Positions 9,704 through 22,946 of a stretch of 24,306 nucleotides of DNA are shown piece after piece (position 1 is the stretch's first letter; each line of letters opens with the position of its first letter). A program made the translations under genes and the position numbers. Under the pieces are notes generated by a model. That model worked only from the letters and a program-made list of their open reading frames with translations. It was not told the origin of the DNA and searched no databases. Source of the stretch: a virus; IMG/VR virus record IMGVR_UViG_3300025108_000379, positions 1-24,306 of that record. One strand, written 5' to 3'.

Positions 9704-10143
9704 GAGAAGCCATACAATTTATCAGACAAAAAATTTATACTGCTTTAAACGGCAATATTTCAAATATTAGCGGCAATACTGTTTTTGTTTATAATCGTGT
9801 ACCTAGTAACGCCAATACACCTTATGTATGGGTTTACTCTGGTAGCACTAATGAAGTAGATCAAAACGCACAAAATTATTGTTTAGAATGTATCACAAGA
9901 ATAGAATGTGTTACAAGATTTGATGCTGATACGGGCGGGGATCTAGATTGTAATACATTAGTTTCAGAAGTATTAACTTTGCTAAGAACTCGAGCCAGTG
10001 GTTATTTCGATTTGAGCTCAAATAATTTTAATGTGTATATCAATGTAAGTGACGGCGTTACATACGAGCAGATTGATAAAAAAGATCACACATACGTTAT
10101 TGGAGTTATTGAACTTGCAACTAGGGTTGAACAATTAAATTAA
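9700..10143 (+). CDS. Tail terminator / tail completion protein (DUF3168-like)
   Basis: Predicted ring protein that caps the head-proximal end of the tail tube and joins it to the neck. The 147-aa length and order are right: REAIQFIRQKIYTALNG at the N terminus, a VYNRVPSNANTPYVWVYSG strand with the characteristic V-P-x-x-x-x-x-P-Y-V motif, a long central strand region (YCLECITRIECVTRF), a helix LDCNTLVSEVLTLLRTR and a final strand (HTYVIGVIELATRVEQ). This fits the DUF3168/gp17-like group. Position after the gp10-like gene supports it. In most siphoviruses the tail-tube gene follows directly; here lysis and fibre genes intervene. Confidence 0.82.
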   Translation: MREAIQFIRQKIYTALNGNISNISGNTVFVYNRVPSNANTPYVWVYSGSTNEVDQNAQNYCLECITRIECVTRFDADTGGDLDCNTLVSEVLTLLRTRASGYFDLSSNNFNVYINVSDGVTYEQIDKKDHTYVIGVIELATRVEQLN

Positions 10144-12097: not shown

Positions 12098-15000
12098 ATG
12101 GGTACTACATTAACAGGCAAGAGAGTTCAGAATACATATGATGCGCTTTTAAAATTAAGCGACAACCAAAATTTAACCGGAACAGCTAAAATAGTTGGTG
12201 ACGGTTATGGTAATGATTCCCCAATATATTTAAGCACATCACAAATAGGAATTGGAATTACACCTTCTTATCAATTTCATACTAGTGGTAATGCTAAAAT
12301 TGGTGGCAATCTTATAATATCTGGTAACCTAACTGTAAATGGTACACTAACATATTTAAATGTACAAGATCTAGCAGTCGAGGATCCGTTAATAAAATTA
12401 GCAAAAGACAATACAGCAAACACATTAGATATTGGATTATTTGGTAAATACGTTGCTACTGGTACAAAGTATAAAGGGTTTTACAATGATGCTAGTGATG
12501 ATAAATTTAAGCTATTTATAGGCACTACTGTTGAGCCAACAACAACTGTTGATACATCAGCAAGTGGATATACTGTTGGAACTCTTGTAGCTAATTTAGA
12601 GGGTAATGTAACTGGCGGCACTATAAGCGGAACCACTGGAAGTTTTAGTGATGATGTAAGTATAGCAGTTTCTAAAAAATTAAAATTTGGTGGTGGTAGC
12701 CATACATATATTAATGAGGATATTGATGATAGATTAAGGTTTTTTACTGGCGGTGCAGAGTTTATGAGGTTTACAGAAGACACCTCTAATACTGTACATT
12801 TATTTGAAAAAACTATTGTTGATAATGATTTACAAGTAAACAATAATATAAGTGGCACAACAGCTACATTTACTGGTTTAGTGACTGGTATTGCTCCGAC
12901 TAGTGATTTAAACTTTGCTACAAAAAAATATGTAGATGATCAAACTATTCCAACACCGACATTAAGCTCTGTTTTAAGTGCTGGTAATTCATCTGGTTCA
13001 AATGATTTAAAAATTATTGATGATCAAAAATTGCTTTTAGGTAATGATGGTGATATGCAGATATATCATAATCAAGTTAATTCTGTATTTTTTAATGATA
13101 CTGGAAATATGGTTTTTAGAAATAATGCCAATGACAAAGACATTAGCTTTCAGACAGATGATGGGCAAGGTTACACTACTGAATATTTAAAATTTGATGG
13201 TGGTTATAGTTTACCTCAAATAAGAATACCAGACAATGTAACAATGAATTTTGGTTCTGATGATGATTTAAAAATATACCATGATGCTACCGATAGTTAT
13301 ATTAAAAATGATACTGGAAATTTCATAATTCAAAATACAAATCCTGATAAAGATATAAATTTCTATGCTACTGTTTCCGATGGTGCTGGTGGCGGAACTG
13401 AGGAGCTTTATTTTCAGTTAGATGGTAGTATTCAAAAAAACGAATTTTATAAACCAGCTTATTTTAAAGATAATATAAAAGCTGAATTTGGATCTGATAG
13501 TGATATTGAATTATTTTTTAGTTCAGCTGATGGTTATTTTAGAAATAAAACTGGAGATTTATATATACAAAATTTAGCAGATGATAAAAGTATTGTATTT
13601 CAATCAGATAACGGTATTGGTGGTGTTACAGAATACTTTAAAATAGATGGCAATATTAACAGAAATGTAATTTTAGTTACAACACAGCTTAATGATAATG
13701 TCCCAATGATTTTTGGTGCTGGAGCTGGTCGACCTAGTATAAAATATGATTCAACTGCAAGCCAATTATTTATTAATGGCGATACTAAATTCTTAAGTGA
13801 TGCTTATATTGTAAATAATTTAAATGTTCAAAAATCAGTTTACCAAACTGCAACTGGTGGTTTTTATATTAACAAACCTTATGGTGGTAGTTTTTACACT
13901 ACTCAAAATGTTTTTACAGGTGCAATACAAATAGCATTACCGACTGGTGGCACTGGTCATGATGATATGATTAAATTTGTTGTTGACATATTTGATTATA
14001 ATACTCAAGAATGTGTTACAGTATTTATTGGTGGTTATACATATCAAAATGTGGGGAGTGGTAACACCACTTGGTACAATGTGTCTGCAACAGTTTTAGG
14101 TCAAAGTTCAGCACAAAATTATACTGTTAGATTTGGTGATAATGGAACTGAGCATTGTGTTTGGATTGGTGATACGACTAGCACTTGGAATCATTTACAA
14201 GTTATAGTCAAAGATTTTTTTGCTGGTTATACTGCTAATATAAATAACTATTTAAGTGATTGGGGCATTAGTGTAGTAACTACACAAACAACTGTTAATA
14301 ATACGTTAACAAATTGTTTTCCAATGTCATCTGACACAATAGCTGATTATTTACCATTAACTGGTGGTACACTAACAGGTAATTTAAACGGCACCTCAGC
14401 ACATTTTACAGGAAATGTTGAAGTTGGTAGTAATGCAAATATATCAATGGATTCATCAGCTAATGGTCAATTAATGATTGATGGCGTAGGTTATCAGGGT
14501 GCTATTGCTTTAGATGATCAAGCTATGCATATATACCATAATAGCAGTGGAAGATCTTTAGTTTTAGGAACTAATGAAACAGCAAGATTAACTATTGGTG
14601 GTTCTGGAAATTCAACTTTTACAGGAAATGTAACAACTGGTCAATCATTATTAGTTAATGGAGTAGGCAATAATTCATCTTTAACTTTAGGAGCAAACAC
14701 TGGGAATTGGGTTTTTACTAATGTACAATCAAGTAGAAATTTAGAAATATCTGATTCAGATGGAACAGGTGTTGTTTTGACAATAGACACAAGTGGTGAT
14801 GCAACTTTTGTTTCAAAATTATCTGCGGCATCAATAGGAGTGTCTGGCAGTAATGGTACAGATGGTAATGGTATTTCTTTATATGGTGGTGCTTTTACTG
14901 GTCAACCTACCTATGGAATGATGTTCCAAAAAACATCAAGTTATAGCACATTTGGATATGTAAGTGGTGATTGGGCAACTTATTTTACAATGGATAGTGG

Positions 15001-17620
15001 AGCTAACAGAGGTTGGATTTTTAGAAATGTATCAACTAGTACCAATGTTGCATCTATAAATAATCAAGGTCATGCACATTTTCAAACACCATCTAAGATT
15101 ACAAGTAATGATACCTCTTTAACATTTGAGGATGCTGGTACAAATGCTATGGTAATAAAAGTTGGTGCTGGTGATGAATTGTATATTGGTAGTAACAACA
15201 CATACCAATTTAGAGGCACTACAACTGGTCAAGCTAGATTAATTTCAAATGGTTACATACATTTGTCTGCTGGTGCATCAACTTATACTGGTTTAGAATT
15301 ACATCAAACCGATGGTTCAAGAGTTGGTTTTTTCTATGGCGATAATGGGCAAACCTCAGAACCTAACGTTGGTATTTTAGATTCTGATGGAAATTGGGCA
15401 GTGAGAGTTAGGAGAGATAATTATACTGAATTAAGAGTTAATAATGTTGTTAAATTTCAAACAACAACAGCCATAAATTATAACTATCAACCAACTTGGA
15501 TTGAGGGTGGCTCTGCTAACTGGAATGAAACTACACCTGGAACAACAACTGGTTCTTTACATCTTGTACCAACTACACCAGATAATTATGGTAGTGCTAT
15601 AACATTTGGTGCATCTGATTCATCTAGTGGAACAAATGCACAAGCTGGTATATATACTAGAACAGATGGTTCTTATGGAACTAAAATGTATTTTGCTACA
15701 AGTGGTAGTTATGCAACTGGTTCTTCAACCAGAATGATGATTGACTACAATGGTCAAATAGGAATGGGTAGTATAGCACCAGAGGGAAAATTAGATGTTA
15801 CTGGTGATATTTGGTTAAATTCAGATAATGCTAATGCAGCATATTACTTGCGAGTTAATAGAGGTCAAAATCAAGATGGCGGCATACTTTTATATGGAAA
15901 TAAGACATTAGATTGGCAAATAGTAAACCAAACAAGTAGAAATTTAAACTGGTATTCGTATGCTGCTGGAGCTAGTGTAATGAGATTAACTACTGGTGGA
16001 CAATTATTAGTTAATGCAACATCCTCTACTTATGGTGCTGCTTATGGTTATAATTTAGGTGTAAAAGGAACTACCGGTCAAGCTTATATATCAATTGCTA
16101 GATCTAATCAAAATTTAGATTCTCAAGGTGTAATTATAGGTTTAGATACAAACTATTCTTATTTTGTTAATAGAGATGCTCTTCCATTAGAATTTCACAC
16201 AAATAATGCTGTAAGAATGCACATACATGGCTCTTTAAATCGTGTTGGTATTGGTGCTGATCCTGTTTCCTCTGCTGGTGTAAATAACTTTTTAATGGTA
16301 AAAGGTTCCTCACATTCTGGTATTGTTTTAAATGCAAATAGCGGTGCTGTACAAGAAATGTGGAATGATGGCGGTACTTTAAATATGTGGGATAGTTCAC
16401 AAGGTTATAGAATGAGATTTTATACAAGTGGTAATGCACAAGTATATAATGGATTAACAGCTGATTCTTTTGGTGTAGCTGGTTCAAATGGTACTGATGG
16501 TAAAGGAATTTCGCTTTATGGTGGCTCCTCTGCTGGTGAGCCAACTTATGGTATGATGTTTATGCAAACAGCAACATTCGGTGGTTACGGATTAGTAAAT
16601 GGTAGTTGGGCAACCTACTTTACTATGAATAGTGACACATCTAGGGGTTGGATTTTTAGAAGAGCTGGCAACAGTAATTGTGCGAGTATTACTGCTGGCG
16701 GCGATTTATCCTTAAAGGGTATAATTAGTTTTACAGATACAAATCAAAGAATATCTGGTTTAAATGGTTCTTATTTAAAAATACAAAGTGGTTCAGCTAG
16801 TGATGGTGGTATAAATTTAACTAATACAAGCGGTACTAATTTAATGTACTTATATGCAAGTGGTTCTGATAAAGGCATGTTAAATGCGGGTGGTTATTGG
16901 ACATTTAAACATTCACAAGGTGGTAACACTAATATATATTCTGGGAATCAAAATTATGTATGGCAATATCAAGGAAGTAATGGTTACGCTTATTTTCCAG
17001 CTTGGATTAATTTAGCTTCTGGTACAGGTTTATTTACAAATTCAAACGGTGGTCATTTTTATGGTAATGAGGGTTCTACTTATGGTGCATGGAGAACATC
17101 TGGTAGCAGAAATGGTTATAGTGGAATTTATGATAATCATTCAGCCACAAATGCAAATATGTTTGATTCTAGCGGTAATGGTGGTAATTATTCATCAACT
17201 GCTGGGTGGCATTTTTATTATCATAAAACAAATCTTTGTTTAGGTATTGGCAATTCAACAACATCATCATCTTATTCTTTATATGTAACAGGTTCGATAT
17301 ATTCAACTCAAGATGTTATTGCTTACTCAGATAAAAGAGCAAAAGAAAATATTATTACTGTTGATAGTGCTATTGAAAAGGTAAATAAATTAAGAGGGGT
17401 TTATTACACACCAAAAGAGGGTAAAGATAAATCAAGAAAAGTTGGTGTTATTGCACAAGAGATTTTAGAGGTATTGCCAGAGGTTGTAACACACGACAAA
17501 GAAAATGATAGATATGGTGTTGATTATGGTAAAATTACTGGTTTATTAATAGAAGCTATCAAAGATCAGCAAAAACAAATAGATAAATTAACTAAATTTG
17601 TAGATAAATTAAATAAATAA
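12098..17620 (+). CDS. Giant tail fibre with C-terminal S74 chaperone, 1840 aa
   Basis: Predicted host-recognition fibre, likely trimeric and beta-rich. N-terminal region: LTGKRVQNTYDALLKL, then SGNLTVNGTLTYLNVQDL and VEDPLIKLAKDN (about 75-110), a head type common in marine phage fibres. Three tandem repeats of about 70-80 residues begin near 306, 377 and 456, each with F/LG-S/N-D-D/G-D-L/M-x-I-Y/F-H...F-x-N-x-T-G-x-x-x...NxxxDKxIxF. A globular domain (about 589-740) is followed by LPLTGGTLTGNL. Two related blocks of about 75 residues start near 917 and 1462 (GSNGTDGxGISLYGG, YGMMF, WATYFTM, RGWIFR). The end is an S74 self-cleaving chaperone, AYSDKRAKENI (Ser1744, base 17327) and VGVIAQEILEVLPEVV, with a coiled-coil tail; cleavage before Ser1744 is expected. 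Thr/Gly/Asn-rich throughout; third codon positions look more T-rich than in the capsid genes. Confidence 0.9.
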   Translation: MGTTLTGKRVQNTYDALLKLSDNQNLTGTAKIVGDGYGNDSPIYLSTSQIGIGITPSYQFHTSGNAKIGGNLIISGNLTVNGTLTYLNVQDLAVEDPLIKLAKDNTANTLDIGLFGKYVATGTKYKGFYNDASDDKFKLFIGTTVEPTTTVDTSASGYTVGTLVANLEGNVTGGTISGTTGSFSDDVSIAVSKKLKFGGGSHTYINEDIDDRLRFFTGGAEFMRFTEDTSNTVHLFEKTIVDNDLQVNNNISGTTATFTGLVTGIAPTSDLNFATKKYVDDQTIPTPTLSSVLSAGNSSGSNDLKIIDDQKLLLGNDGDMQIYHNQVNSVFFNDTGNMVFRNNANDKDISFQTDDGQGYTTEYLKFDGGYSLPQIRIPDNVTMNFGSDDDLKIYHDATDSYIKNDTGNFIIQNTNPDKDINFYATVSDGAGGGTEELYFQLDGSIQKNEFYKPAYFKDNIKAEFGSDSDIELFFSSADGYFRNKTGDLYIQNLADDKSIVFQSDNGIGGVTEYFKIDGNINRNVILVTTQLNDNVPMIFGAGAGRPSIKYDSTASQLFINGDTKFLSDAYIVNNLNVQKSVYQTATGGFYINKPYGGSFYTTQNVFTGAIQIALPTGGTGHDDMIKFVVDIFDYNTQECVTVFIGGYTYQNVGSGNTTWYNVSATVLGQSSAQNYTVRFGDNGTEHCVWIGDTTSTWNHLQVIVKDFFAGYTANINNYLSDWGISVVTTQTTVNNTLTNCFPMSSDTIADYLPLTGGTLTGNLNGTSAHFTGNVEVGSNANISMDSSANGQLMIDGVGYQGAIALDDQAMHIYHNSSGRSLVLGTNETARLTIGGSGNSTFTGNVTTGQSLLVNGVGNNSSLTLGANTGNWVFTNVQSSRNLEISDSDGTGVVLTIDTSGDATFVSKLSAASIGVSGSNGTDGNGISLYGGAFTGQPTYGMMFQKTSSYSTFGYVSGDWATYFTMDSGANRGWIFRNVSTSTNVASINNQGHAHFQTPSKITSNDTSLTFEDAGTNAMVIKVGAGDELYIGSNNTYQFRGTTTGQARLISNGYIHLSAGASTYTGLELHQTDGSRVGFFYGDNGQTSEPNVGILDSDGNWAVRVRRDNYTELRVNNVVKFQTTTAINYNYQPTWIEGGSANWNETTPGTTTGSLHLVPTTPDNYGSAITFGASDSSSGTNAQAGIYTRTDGSYGTKMYFATSGSYATGSSTRMMIDYNGQIGMGSIAPEGKLDVTGDIWLNSDNANAAYYLRVNRGQNQDGGILLYGNKTLDWQIVNQTSRNLNWYSYAAGASVMRLTTGGQLLVNATSSTYGAAYGYNLGVKGTTGQAYISIARSNQNLDSQGVIIGLDTNYSYFVNRDALPLEFHTNNAVRMHIHGSLNRVGIGADPVSSAGVNNFLMVKGSSHSGIVLNANSGAVQEMWNDGGTLNMWDSSQGYRMRFYTSGNAQVYNGLTADSFGVAGSNGTDGKGISLYGGSSAGEPTYGMMFMQTATFGGYGLVNGSWATYFTMNSDTSRGWIFRRAGNSNCASITAGGDLSLKGIISFTDTNQRISGLNGSYLKIQSGSASDGGINLTNTSGTNLMYLYASGSDKGMLNAGGYWTFKHSQGGNTNIYSGNQNYVWQYQGSNGYAYFPAWINLASGTGLFTNSNGGHFYGNEGSTYGAWRTSGSRNGYSGIYDNHSATNANMFDSSGNGGNYSSTAGWHFYYHKTNLCLGIGNSTTSSSYSLYVTGSIYSTQDVIAYSDKRAKENIITVDSAIEKVNKLRGVYYTPKEGKDKSRKVGVIAQEILEVLPEVVTHDKENDRYGVDYGKITGLLIEAIKDQQKQIDKLTKFVDKLNK

Positions 17621-18799: not shown

Positions 18800-19258
18800 A
18801 TGTCAGTGATTAATTCGTCAAGTTTTTTATTATTAAAAGACGATGTCATAATTGGTCACAGTACTGAAACTACATTTGCGCTTGAATTAGATTTACCAGA
18901 AGCTACAACAAAAGACAGTTTAGGTTGGAAGGAATTTATTGCCTGTGTTAGAGGTGGTAATATGTCTGCGGCCGGGTTAACTTGTTACAATGATTCTTTA
19001 AATTTTAATCAATTTTCTGATTATGTAATTGGAAAATCTAAGGTTGTTTTTTATTTTAAACAAACTACGGATCCCGAGTTGATATGTAGAGGTGAAGGAT
19101 TTATCACAAGCGTTGACGAGGTCGGTGATAACGAATCAATCAGCGAGTTTAACGTTGAAATAACTCTCACTGGAACTGTAACGGCCGGAAACGACAAAAA
19201 CTGGGAAAACATATTTGAGTTTTGGGAGGATATTGCTAAAAACTGGGAAAGTGTATAA
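18800..19258 (+). CDS. Tail tube protein paralogue 1 (minor?), 152 aa
   Basis: Related to the tail-tube protein encoded next to it. The shared core is IIGHSTETTFALELDLPEAT followed by TKDSLGW, VRGGNMSAAGLTCY, a SDYVIGKSKVVFYF strand, and GFITSVDEVGDNESISEFNVEITLTGTV. This is the layout of TP901-1-type major tail proteins. Unlike its neighbour it has cysteines (about four) and a C-terminal extension of about 22 aromatic/acidic residues after TGTVTAG (NWENIFEFWEDIAKNWE). It is more diverged from the usual pattern than the next gene, so it may be a minor tube or tail-initiator/terminator ring. It is expressed from the promoter before the coiled-coil gene. Confidence 0.8.
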   Translation: MSVINSSSFLLLKDDVIIGHSTETTFALELDLPEATTKDSLGWKEFIACVRGGNMSAAGLTCYNDSLNFNQFSDYVIGKSKVVFYFKQTTDPELICRGEGFITSVDEVGDNESISEFNVEITLTGTVTAGNDKNWENIFEFWEDIAKNWESV

Positions 19259-19310: not shown

Positions 19311-19736
19311 ATGGCTACTTCTGGAATATTTAACGGAACTAATTTAATTTTAAAATTTCACTCAACTGATGGAAGTGAAGTTGTTGTAGGGCACACAACT
19401 AGTGCAAGTTTAAGCTTGTCTGCTGATTTGCCAGATGCTACAACTAAAGATTCATCAGGTTACAATGAGGTTATTGCTGGAACAAGAACTGGAGAAATAT
19501 CATTTGAAGGTCTTGTTGCTTATGACGATTCTAACAATGCTATTGAAGCTGCTGACTATTTATTAGCAAGAACAAAAGTATATTGGTCATTTGGTACTGC
19601 TGAGTCAGGTGACGACGTATTTAATGGAGCTGGATTTTTAAATTCAGTTGAAATGAGCGCAGAAATGGAATCGCCAGTGTCGTTTAGTGGATCTATCACT
19701 GTTACAGGCGCAATTAGTAAAACTGAAAACCAATAA
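19311..19736 (+). CDS. Major tail tube protein (paralogue 2), 141 aa
   Basis: Likely the main subunit of the tail tube. Length and pattern match TP901-1-type major tail proteins: FNGTNLILKFHSTDGSEVVV, then the recurrent GHTTSASLSLSADLPDATTK, DSSGYNEVIAGTRTGEISFEGL, YLLARTKVYWSFGT and the closing beta strands ESPVSFSGSITVTGAIS. It shares the G-H-T/S-T ... D-L-P-D/E-A-T-T-K-D-S motif with the preceding protein. It has its own candidate promoter upstream and a hairpin just downstream, both consistent with high, separately tuned expression. The chaperone and tape-measure genes follow, the standard order, and no cysteines are present. Confidence 0.88.
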   Translation: MATSGIFNGTNLILKFHSTDGSEVVVGHTTSASLSLSADLPDATTKDSSGYNEVIAGTRTGEISFEGLVAYDDSNNAIEAADYLLARTKVYWSFGTAESGDDVFNGAGFLNSVEMSAEMESPVSFSGSITVTGAISKTENQ

Positions 19737-19785: not shown

Positions 19786-20163
19786 ATGGCAAACAAGAAA
19801 AGAGGATACTACACTGTAGAAATGGGTGGTAAGCAACGTACACTACATTTCTCAATGAATTTTTGGTCAAACTTTACAGACATTTTAAACATACCGCTCG
19901 AAGGTCTTGCAGATGTTTTTTCAGAAGGCATTAAACTTTCCACAATTAGAACTTTAATTTATGCTGGTTTATTAGCATACGATCAAGAAGAAGGAAACGA
20001 AATTGATTACAATGAGTTTAAAGTTGGTATGTGGTTAGAAGATTTTTCATCTGAAAAACTAGAAAACATTGTACAAACTATGATGCAATCAAGAATTTTA
20101 GGCAATGATTTAAATGCTGGATTAAGTAGAAATGTTAAAAAAACTACAAAGCCGGGAAAGTAA
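19786..20163 (+). CDS. Tail assembly chaperone, G-type product
   Basis: Predicted chaperone that coats the tape measure and recruits tail-tube subunits. The 125-aa product begins RGYYTVEMGGKQRTLHFSMNFWSNF and has a helical body (LADVFSEGIKLSTIRTLIYAGLLAYDQEEG, NEFKVGMWLEDFS), the usual layout of the G-like component in siphoviruses. Position between the major tail protein and the tape measure is diagnostic. The frame ends VKKTTKPGK-stop, and within its last codons lies a run of seven A (20137-20143) after which the -1 frame continues for about 118 residues. That arrangement is the classic G/GT frameshift seen in lambda and many other tailed phages. Confidence 0.85.
   Translation: MANKKRGYYTVEMGGKQRTLHFSMNFWSNFTDILNIPLEGLADVFSEGIKLSTIRTLIYAGLLAYDQEEGNEIDYNEFKVGMWLEDFSSEKLENIVQTMMQSRILGNDLNAGLSRNVKKTTKPGK
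20134..20145 (+). other. Probable -1 ribosomal frameshift site in the tail chaperone
   Basis: The zero frame reads GTT AAA AAA ACT, and seven consecutive A occupy 20137-20143. A one-base backward slip here turns AAA ACT into AAA AAC. The -1 frame has a stop at 20136-20138 just upstream, and the zero-frame stop is at 20161-20163, so a shift must occur within about 25 bases, and the A run is the only slippery stretch there. No strong downstream stem-loop was seen by eye. Confidence 0.7.
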
Positions 20164-20498
20164 ACAGCCAGCTTGATTGGGAATCACTGATTGACTTTTA
20201 TATTGGTCAAGTTGGCATTACGCCAGATAGGTTTTGGATCCATACTTGGAAGGAAAATCATCTAATGGGCGAATCATACTTGATAAAACAAAATTTAGAA
20301 TGGGAACGGATCCGGTATTTATCTACAATGGTTTACAATGTAAACTGTCAAAAAAGATCACAGATGCTAAAACCGGAAAAATTATTTCCACTGCCACAAG
20401 ACGCTTTACTTGATACCGGCAAGCCAAAATCTACTGTTGAAGAATACTTAAAATTCAAGAAAAAGCTTGAGAACCGTAAATGGGTTACACTTGATTAA
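20139..20498 (+). CDS. Tail assembly chaperone, T-type extension reached by -1 frameshift
   Basis: This -1 frame is open from just after the stop at 20136-20138 to TAA 20496-20498 and has no start codon before ATG 20265. Its early part encodes conserved-looking protein upstream of that ATG: SQLDWESLIDFYIGQVGI and TPDRFWIHTWKENHL, a pattern typical of T-like chaperone domains (W-x-x-L-x-x-F-x-I-G-x-V/x-G-I/L-x-P-x-x-F-W). The rest (LEWERIRYLSTMVYNVN, LKPEKLFPLPQDALLD) fits the same family, with L-K-P-x-x-L-F-P-L-P at the expected place. A separate gene from ATG 20265 would therefore lose part of the domain, so the frameshift fusion (about 237 aa in total) is preferred. Gene callers are likely to report only the 77-aa fragment. 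Confidence 0.75.
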   Translation, partial: KNYKAGKVNSQLDWESLIDFYIGQVGITPDRFWIHTWKENHLMGESYLIKQNLEWERIRYLSTMVYNVNCQKRSQMLKPEKLFPLPQDALLDTGKPKSTVEEYLKFKKKLENRKWVTLD

Positions 20499-20528: not shown

Positions 20529-22946
20529 ATGGCAAAAGAAGAAGTTATCATTGTATTTGGCGCCGACGTCAAAAAATTGGAAGCCGGATTAAAAACGGCC
20601 GGAACTAAAATCAAAAAATTTGGTAGCAAAGTAAGTAAGGTTGGCAAGAGTTTAAGCGTTAAGCTGACTGCTCCGCTTGTTTTAGCGGGTGGCGTGGCTC
20701 TAAAGTCAGCAGCTAAATTCGAGAAGCTTAGAACAACTTTAAATGTCTTAACCGGGTCAGCTGATGAAGGCGGTAAAGCTTTTAAAAGATTAGTTGAATT
20801 TTCAGCAAAAACACCGTTTCAGTTAGATTCGTTAGTACAAGCGAATAATACAATGATGGGTTTTGGTTTAAGTGCTGATGAAGCATACGGATCTTTACAA
20901 CAGTTAGGTGATATTGCGGCAGTAGCAGGCGGTGATTTACAAAGAATCGCAGTTGCTTTCGGTCAATCTGCTGCTGAGGGCCGTGTAATGACTAGAGATA
21001 TTTTACAGTTTATTAATAACGGCGTACCAATGTACGATTTATTAGCTGATGTTACAGGTAAAAGCGCCAGTGAAGTTAGACAGTTAGCTACTGATGGTAA
21101 AATAACTTTTGACGTTTTACAAGCGGCATTTAAAAAAGCTACATCAGAGGGCGGTAAGTTTCATAAAGGTATGGACGTTTTAAGTCAAACTTTAGGCGGC
21201 ATGTTTTCCACTTTACAAGACAATTTAAACATAGCTTTTGCTGAACTTGGACAAGAAATTGCTACGGCATTTAACTTGTCAGAAAACGTACCTAAATTGA
21301 TTGAGTTTATTAAAGAAATGACAGCTAAATTTAAAGCTCTGTCACCTGAGACAAAAAGATTTTTAGTTATAGCAACCGCAATAGCAGCAGCATTACCTCC
21401 ACTGTTAATAGTTTTAGGGCCAATAATTACTAGCATTGGAGCTATTACAACCGGTATAAGTGGAGCAATAGGTGTATTTGTAAAATTAATACCAATTTTA
21501 AAAAGCGGTAGATTAGGCATTTTAGCACTAAATTTAGCAATGAAGGCAAACCCGGCTATATTATTTGCCTCAATTATTTTAGGGGCCGCAGCAGCACTGT
21601 TTAAATTAGGTAGAGCAAGAAAAGCAGCTCAGATGGAAAAGCTTAATGAAGAATTTAATAAATTATCATTAGATGAAGCTGAAACACAATTAAAAAATTT
21701 AACTGTTGTATATGAGGGCAATAATAAAATACTTGAAAAAAATAATGAATTAGCTTTTACAAGAAGAAAACACATACTTAACGATATAAATGGCGACAGG
21801 GTAAAAACAGGTACATTAAAAGCAAAAAACAAAAAAACCGGCGAAGAAATAGAGCTTTTAAAAAAAATAATTGAAGAAAAAAAGAAATTAAATTTACTTG
21901 AAAAAGAAGCTCCAAAAGGTGACGCGCCGATTAACAGTGGCGGAACTATTGACATTGATACAAGCGAAGAAGAAAGGGCAGCAGCAGCATTAAAATTAAA
22001 ACAAGATACAGCAGCAGCATTATTGACTACTGACCAAAAAAGATTTGAAAATGAGGTTAAACAAACAAAAGCACATTACGATAATTTAATAAAATTAAAT
22101 AAAAATAATGCTTCCATTGTAAAACAGCTTGAGGAAAGTAAAGGTGAAAAATTAAAAGAAATATCAGAAAATCATTATAAAACTTTTTTAGACGCTTTCA
22201 AAGAATATGGCGAAAAAAGAAAAGAAATGCAAACTCAAGTTGAGGACGCAAGTGCTGTTACAGATGAGCAAAAAAAGCAATTAGAAATACAAAGAGCTAA
22301 ACAACATTTTACTTTTTTATTAGCAGAAGCAAAAAAATTCAATCTTGACACTGCCGCTCTACAAGAAGCACAAAAATTAAGAATTGCAGAAATTACTGCT
22401 AAATACACAGAATCACAATCTACTTTTGCAACAGCACAAGAAAATATAAATAATGTTTTACAAGGTAGTTTTGCTAACTTAGGGAACTCAATCACAAACG
22501 CATTCGCAGGATCAAAAACAGTTTTAGGCGCTTTTATGGGCGCATTTATACAAACAGCAACAAGTATAATGGCGGCAAATTTAGCAACATCTATGTCTGG
22601 CGCAGTTGATTCTGGTACAAAAACAGCAGCGAGCTTTGGACCCGCAGCAGCATTTGTTTTACCCGGTCTAGTTGCTGGAGCAATGGCGGTTGTAAGTAAA
22701 GCATTTAACAAAGTGCCGAAATTCGCACAGGGTGGTATAGTAAGCACACCAACACTTGGTATGTTCGGTGAATATCCGGGTGCTTCTAGAAATCCAGAGG
22801 TAGTTGCCCCGTTAGATAAGTTAAAAGGTATGCTTGGTAACAGTGGAGGATCTAAAGTACAAGTGGCTGGTGAATTTAGATTAAAAGGTCAGGACCTAGT
22901 TGTAGCATTACAAAGAGCAAATAATAACAGAAATAGAATTTTATAA
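20529..22946 (+). CDS. Tape measure protein, 805 aa
   Basis: Sets tail length and is later ejected to help DNA entry. The N-terminal domain (about 60-250) carries KFEKLRTTLNVLTGS, FKRLVEFSAKTPFQLDSLV, DIAAVAGGDLQRIAVAFGQ, ILQFINNGVPMYDLLADV and FKKATSEGGKFHKGMDVLSQ, the standard phage tape-measure N domain. Hydrophobic helices lie at about 278-325 (IATAIAAALPPLLIVLGPII) and 331-360, and again near 700-722 (FVLPGLVAGAMAVV). A long helical, Lys/Glu-rich coiled-coil region fills about 365-640. The C terminus has the recurrent KFAQGGIVSTPTLGMFGE and NPEVVAPLDKL motif near 733-766. With about 1.5 angstrom per residue, 805 residues predict a tail of roughly 120 nm. Its stop overlaps the next start (TAATG). 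Confidence 0.93.
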   Translation: MAKEEVIIVFGADVKKLEAGLKTAGTKIKKFGSKVSKVGKSLSVKLTAPLVLAGGVALKSAAKFEKLRTTLNVLTGSADEGGKAFKRLVEFSAKTPFQLDSLVQANNTMMGFGLSADEAYGSLQQLGDIAAVAGGDLQRIAVAFGQSAAEGRVMTRDILQFINNGVPMYDLLADVTGKSASEVRQLATDGKITFDVLQAAFKKATSEGGKFHKGMDVLSQTLGGMFSTLQDNLNIAFAELGQEIATAFNLSENVPKLIEFIKEMTAKFKALSPETKRFLVIATAIAAALPPLLIVLGPIITSIGAITTGISGAIGVFVKLIPILKSGRLGILALNLAMKANPAILFASIILGAAAALFKLGRARKAAQMEKLNEEFNKLSLDEAETQLKNLTVVYEGNNKILEKNNELAFTRRKHILNDINGDRVKTGTLKAKNKKTGEEIELLKKIIEEKKKLNLLEKEAPKGDAPINSGGTIDIDTSEEERAAAALKLKQDTAAALLTTDQKRFENEVKQTKAHYDNLIKLNKNNASIVKQLEESKGEKLKEISENHYKTFLDAFKEYGEKRKEMQTQVEDASAVTDEQKKQLEIQRAKQHFTFLLAEAKKFNLDTAALQEAQKLRIAEITAKYTESQSTFATAQENINNVLQGSFANLGNSITNAFAGSKTVLGAFMGAFIQTATSIMAANLATSMSGAVDSGTKTAASFGPAAAFVLPGLVAGAMAVVSKAFNKVPKFAQGGIVSTPTLGMFGEYPGASRNPEVVAPLDKLKGMLGNSGGSKVQVAGEFRLKGQDLVVALQRANNNRNRIL

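Follow-up and report, generated by a model that had tools for sequence, protein, structure and literature searches.

The window analysed here very probably encodes a lambda-type G/GT pair of tail assembly chaperones, with the second product reached by -1 programmed ribosomal frameshifting at the heptamer G_GGA_AAG. The window is the whole stretch of DNA under study, which is the entire virus record IMGVR_UViG_3300025108_000379 (24,306 bases, 32% G+C) and possibly a fragment of a genome. The two frames, the heptamer, its register and conservation, selection at the protein level and, in one clade, covariation in a downstream stem are seen directly. As the heptamer is a textbook one lying in register, the mechanism would be an ordinary one, for which no special kind of slippage is needed.

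Gene Neighborhood and Overlapping Reading Frames

The window contains genes for terminase, portal, a Mu-F-like protein, prohead protease, capsid, a head-tail connector, head completion, tail tube and tape measure proteins. Here, the order of interest is tail tube, G, T and tape measure (Table 1). A TAA at 20136-20138 immediately precedes the open stretch of T, in which ATG occurs first at 20265. The first-pass annotation, made from the letters of the window alone, had given the G frame (19786-20163), the -1 frame (20139-20498) and this ATG correctly, and the A7 run at 20137-20143 with the codons GTT AAA AAA ACT is present as it described. It had also proposed a G/T-type tail chaperone pair linked via a -1 shift. 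This part of the proposal is supported by our comparison, as all 217 distinct homologous regions listed have T shifted by -1 relative to G, and T is conserved at the protein level upstream of ATG 20265.

The tail tube gene next to G is one of two adjacent paralogues (18800-19258 and 19311-19736), both of which match phrog_1407, the first also matching PF06199 weakly. Positions 12098-17620 code for a fibre-like protein of 1840 amino acids with a Peptidase_S74 chaperone domain at its end; this gene precedes the tail tube genes instead of following the tape measure gene.

Table 1. Features at the G/T junction of the window and in the flanking genes
Feature	Position	Strand	Basis
Major tail (tube) protein gene, directly 5' of G, as in lambda V-G	19311..19736	+	PF06199, E=2e-15
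Predicted G-type tail assembly chaperone reading frame (125 amino acids), zero frame	19786..20163	+	phrog_2115 match, model, gene order
A7 run, rejected as the slip site	20137..20143	+	Not conserved
Predicted T-type frame, -1 relative to G	20139..20498	+	phrog_16333; weak Phage_TAC_6 / Phage_tail_T; pN/pS
Predicted slip site G_GGA_AAG, X_XXY_YYZ, in register with G	20154..20160	+	Conservation; same heptamer in lambda
G stop codon TAA, immediately 3' of the slip site	20161..20163	+	
6-base spacer, slip site to stem	20161..20166	+	
Stem 5' arm (GCCAGCUUGAU)	20167..20177	+	Folding z -2.4; covariation
Stem 3' arm (GUCAAGUUGGC)	20206..20216	+	Folding; covariation
Tape measure protein gene, directly 3' of T, as in lambda G-T-H	20529..22946	+	PF20155, E=8e-32

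Sampling of Relatives

With G and T as queries, relatives were gathered from draft genomes and from the virus collection, each scan of the latter giving its 80 best loci; the phage family is larger than this sampled set. Of 309 sequences (308 loci and the window), 306 contain both genes and yield 217 distinct G-T regions. Left out were L194, where G was not found in the locus, and the distant Cellulophaga phages L227 and L228. Some of the 217 regions may represent one contig cut at two places, and cluster counts are therefore given as well: the distinct regions listed correspond to 120 clusters at 95% identity, 81 at 90% and 64 at 85%. For codon use, folding and Shine-Dalgarno motifs, we analysed 60 clusters of the 213 regions whose heptamer reads GGGAAA-. 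The stem alignment comprises 45 of these 60 clusters, all from clade I, with the window replacing the near-identical L166; outside it are 5 clusters with a 3-nt insertion, which were aligned apart, and 10 that are of clade II or L163. The pN/pS analysis was carried out on 45 ungapped clusters.

The matches in draft genomes are on three contigs, and the drafts into which these were binned are unrelated; we therefore claim no host. A search of phage DNA with the window as query gave no match, and neither did protein searches in which its own G and T were the queries, at E<=0.01. Because these direct searches came back empty, named isolates were reached only via more distant members of the family or via the tape measure protein. 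Our literature searches, with passages from PMC5009743, PMC7618472 and PMC10885494, turned up no account of this G/T family, which does not prove its absence from print.

A Nearly Invariant GGGAAAG Heptamer in Register with G

The final codons of G are AAG CCG GGA AAG TAA, and the -1 reading of the heptamer and the bases following it is GGG AAA GTA, so that both tRNAs are able to pair again one base back. GGGAAAG (20154-20160) is the sole X_XXY_YYZ heptamer open to T in the window, and it lies in register within the overlap of the two frames; the first-pass statement that A7 is the only slippery stretch of this overlap is thus wrong. In-register GGGAAAG with T open from the heptamer onward is found in 211 of the 217 distinct regions listed. 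Counted by clusters of these regions, 75 of 81 retain the heptamer at 90% identity, and at 85% it is shared by all members of 58 of 64. The G stop follows immediately in 94 of 118 distinct regions listed (93 with GGGAAAG and 1 with GGGAAAA).

GGGAAAG is common per se, with two copies in the window compared with 2.26 expected by shuffling. The second copy (19245) does not lie in the register of its gene. From codon use in the 60 clusters, the probability that a Gly-Lys pair is written as G-GGA-AAG is ~0.004. We conclude from these sequence comparisons that the in-register retention of GGGAAAG near the G stop is not a product of chance. In 80 of the 211 listed regions, the T frame has a stop no more than 3 nt before the heptamer, and a -1 slip further upstream would therefore hit it. 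Among these 80, GGGAAAG is the sole pattern heptamer in 72, and the remaining 8 have an overlapping AAAGGGA too. Further in-register X_XXY_YYZ heptamers open to T occur in 67 of the 211 listed regions, so that the slip site used in those regions is not proved; GGGAAAG is the heptamer common to all 211.

The six exceptions are L168/L005 with GGGAAAA, L163 with GGGAAAC, L303 with AAAAAAC, L237 with AAAAAAA, and L296 and L308. GGGAAAA and GGGAAAC differ from GGGAAAG in the final base alone. L237 (~2781-2875) and L303 (~909-979) carry A_AAA_AAA and A_AAA_AAC, respectively, at the place of GGGAAAG, an apparent natural replacement of the slip site. L296 (~2786-2829) and L308 (~2832-2878), both from clade II, have no heptamer and only an in-register A_AAG; T is still in the -1 frame, and the 5' stem arm looks kept by eye, with one change in L308.

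In the sections of two reviews that deal with such sites, G_GGA_AAG is given as the gpG/gpGT slip site of phage lambda (PMC7618472) and as highly shift-prone in Escherichia coli (PMC5009743). Upstream of the heptamer, the Shine-Dalgarno-like motifs that we tried are absent from 60 of 60 clusters, and a stimulator of this type was consequently rejected.

Other Routes into the T Frame

The first-pass annotation had placed the shift at A7, where either a single lysyl-tRNA slipping on the run or RNA polymerase adding an A would give access to the T frame. Indeed, A7 exists in the window with T open right after it, runs of at least 7 A open to T are present in 21 of 144 clade I regions among those listed, and Cellulophaga phages have A8-A9 at comparable junctions. 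The run is not kept in the family, however. L166, with 99.9% identical DNA, also has A7, and among the listed relatives whose proteins differ, the closest (L004/L167, with 94% identity in G) carries A6 together with GGGAAAG. Runs of at least 7 A open to T are found in 0 of the 69 listed clade II regions, and 40 of the first 118 distinct regions listed contain no run of 4 or more A in the open stretch. If the A7 position is located in relatives by its fixed distance from the heptamer, the T frame is closed by a stop further downstream in 58 of the 144 listed clade I regions. The conservation of the A run in register, which the annotation had suggested checking, did not hold: no conserved in-register A run with T open was found among the regions listed, across which the textbook heptamer is nearly invariant. 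Lysine is encoded by 462 AAA and 88 AAG codons in the 60 clusters, and the A run probably just follows from this preference. We thus rejected A7 as the slip site and regard slippage there, by either mechanism, as very unlikely. A slip at A7 would read ...KKNYKAGK-VNSQ..., with the Arg-specific junction peptide NVKKNYKAGKVNSQ..., whereas the junction predicted for the GGGAAAG slip is ...KKTTKPGK-VNSQLDW..., with the Arg-specific junction peptide NVKKTTKPGKVNSQLDWESLIDFYIGQVGITPDR.

Slightly less probable still is the translation of T alone, without frameshifting, from ATG 20265 or from a non-AUG start. The ATG is present, and CTG, ATT and ATC codons lie upstream of it in the T frame. T is conserved as a protein from the slip site onward, however, 35 codons before the ATG: between the slip site and ATG 20265 the mean pN/pS of the T frame is 0.31 in 45 clusters, compared with 1.03 and 1.91 for the two alternative frames, and it is 0.26 after the ATG in the 45 ungapped clusters. 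A lack of protein-level conservation in this stretch had been named beforehand as refuting the first-pass reading of T as a frame entered from G, and the conservation observed instead bears this reading out. ATG occupies the place of 20265 in only 6 of 45 clusters, the codon otherwise mostly encoding leucine, so few homologues could start T there, which favors frameshifting. In addition, 32 of the 45 clusters have no ATG, GTG or TTG in the stretch upstream. T is thus a frame with no conserved start of its own in these 45 clusters, in which protein-level selection begins at the slip site; an independent start at ATG 20265 was rejected on these grounds. A start within T would also leave the heptamer and the stem unexplained. 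A sequencing error or a decayed gene, conceivable for an uncultured-virus record that is maybe a fragment, has practically no probability left and is already refuted by the comparative data, with the same split present in 217 distinct listed regions (120 clusters at 95% identity) and the T frame under purifying selection on both sides of ATG 20265.

Protein Matches and Structural Models of G and T

The window's G matches phrog_2115, annotated as 'tail protein', with E=3.4e-10, and all of 47 aligned homologues match this family as well. T matches phrog_16333, to which no function is assigned, from residue 23 onward (E=2e-6). The first-pass annotation had recommended a profile search of T. Pfam chaperone families were matched at E<=0.5 by some of 47 sequences, 20 of them matching Phage_TAC_6 and 5 matching Phage_tail_T (minor tail protein T), but these matches are below the curated cut-offs, including that of the window's own T (E=0.17), and they stand alongside ten unrelated Pfam families (SAND, DUF6399 and others) matching 1-3 T members as weakly or better.

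AlphaFold models were obtained with pLDDT values of 81 for G and 85 for T. The G model matches viral models, some of them named tail assembly chaperone. Eight matches have E<=0.001, including one with this name (E=5e-4); other matches are unnamed, and some weaker ones are named tail tube protein. For the T model, no viral model matches at E<=0.001, and a protein from Cellulophaga phage phi18:2 matches at E=1.3e-3. A viral model of 247 amino acids, A0A0K1LMC7, matches both the G and the T model, as a fusion would. We rejected its identification as the fusion protein of Caulobacter phage Seuss, as the coordinates in the Seuss record give 228 and not 247 amino acids. Searches of the PDB by sequence returned no usable match for G or T. 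A PDB fold search with the G model likewise gave nothing usable, the VIA-align list topping at Z 2.6, so that a family missing from this list is uninformative. The chaperone label rests equally on gene order, frame arrangement, slip site and protein matches.

A Stem 3' of the Predicted Slip Site in Clade I

In the window, the two arms listed in Table 1 form an 11-bp stem (MFE -19.4, z -2.4). Sequence windows of 60 and 90 nt starting 12 nt past the first base of the heptamer have a mean z of -2.5 in the 60 clusters, compared with a mean z of ~0 for three control windows. A 40-nt window, which is too short to hold the 3' arm, has no excess stability (z -0.07).

We analysed covariation in the 45 clade I representatives. 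Here, 85.7% of the stem cells are paired versus 79.8% in shuffles, 24 cells are changed on both sides versus 7.3, and the covariation score is 0.216 versus 0.128, with 0 of 500 shuffles reaching the observed value in each case. The exchanges include G-C to C-G or A-U (14 cells) and A-U to G-C (9 cells) and are prominent at the first and fifth pairs. The number of pairs changed on both sides (3, reached by 197 of 500 shuffles) and that of further pair types (10, reached by 129 of 500) are not above shuffles in these 45 rows; three of five covariation measures are thus above shuffles and two are not. The inner pairs (columns 21-23) fail in 18-19 of the 45 rows, and the shared part of the stem is therefore its outer 7 bp.

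RNAalifold at default settings returned no consensus pairs for all 45 rows. Three rows, L036, L067 and L073, do not form the stem and are without [GC]CC at columns 14-16. With these three rows removed, RNAalifold reports a 7-bp helix at -9.8 kcal/mol; shuffled columns give -0.4, and none of 100 shuffles reaches the observed energy. RIBOSUM scoring recovers the 7-bp helix with all 45 rows. The stem may stimulate slippage at GGGAAAG.

A Different Helix in Clade II

In clade II, another helix is formed by GCCGUCAAAGA with UUUUUGGCGGC, located 5 nt past the heptamer and comprising 10-12 bp in 69 of 69 listed regions. Covariation is silent for this helix because its arms are nearly invariant. Its one line of support is a control with shuffled arms, in which the fraction reaching 11 bp is 0.000 and that reaching 9 bp is 0.008. 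We see an even chance that the 3' partner of the stem has been re-wired between the clades, the stem forming a local hairpin in clade I but closing a loop of ~60 nt in clade II, with the heptamer, a 5-6-nt spacer and a ~7-12-bp stem kept in both. If so, the slip site and the location of the stem would be constant and the stimulator itself exchanged, providing a natural test of what sets the G:GT ratio. The conserved stem, and the different stem partners in two clades of one family, are mildly new.

Discussion

What we infer from the comparative data is slippage itself, how often it occurs, the stimulatory effect of the stem and the function of the products as chaperones. Most ribosomes would read G and stop at the TAA at 20161-20163. 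In a minority, the glycine and lysine tRNAs on GGA AAG (20155-20160) would slip one base back to GGG AAA (20154-20159), and translation would then continue in the -1 frame from GTA (20160 onward) to yield a GT fusion of 237 amino acids. The 11-bp stem located 6 bases past the slip site may pause the ribosome and raise the slip rate.

For a large family of uncultured tailed phages, our analysis corrects the position of the slip, allows the T chaperone to be annotated within a GT fusion and removes the claim of an unusual slippage mechanism. The natural variants of the conserved stem can serve to study how the G:GT ratio is tuned by phages.

We compared the arrangement in the window to other frameshifting systems. 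A slippery site followed by a 3' stem-loop is also described for E. coli dnaX in the pertinent section of PMC5009743. dnaX in addition has an upstream Shine-Dalgarno stimulator, whereas 60 of 60 clusters of the window family are without such a motif, and dnaX is a different gene with a role other than that of the G/T pair. In Caulobacter phage Seuss (KT001914, annotated with 'ribosomal slippage'), a short chaperone and a fusion are likewise encoded just 5' of the tape measure gene. The short Seuss product is found among the fold matches of G, weakly (rank 49, E 0.14), and the annotated slip occurs at an in-register T_TTT_TTC (L310, 16851-16857), ~140 nt before the G stop.

The Cellulophaga phages phi10:1, phi39:1 and phi18:1 contain G/T-like pairs in the same gene order. 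Their similarity to the window family is weak, with G related to phi10:1 (E 2e-3) and T to phi18:1 (E 0.02), while phi39:1 is linked via the tape measure only; proteins of phi18:2 match both the G and T models. The T frame of the Cellulophaga pairs is +1/-2 relative to G, their junctions carry A8-A9, and there are ATG codons close by, whereas T in the window is in the -1 frame. The runs are A8 in phi10:1 (L227, ~2345-2366), A8 in phi39:1 (L228, ~2098-2121) and A9 in phi18:1 (L311, ~977-1017). Slippage on an A run is better sought in these phages than in the window, and a nearby ATG could also start T there.

Phage lambda has the same order of major tail protein, G, T and tape measure, with genes of similar sizes, and it too carries GGGAAAG in register in G (10109-10115), with the shift likewise in the -1 direction. 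The lambda G stop is found 5 codons after the slip site, whereas that of the window follows directly, and the similarity between the lambda and window proteins is too weak for a Pfam call above cut-off. The window family has a conserved, partly covarying stem 6 nt past the slip site. For lambda, PMC5009743 describes G as binding the tape measure protein, with tail tube subunits being recruited by the T part. By analogy, G of the window may bind its tape measure protein, with the T part of the GT fusion bringing in the tail tube subunits.
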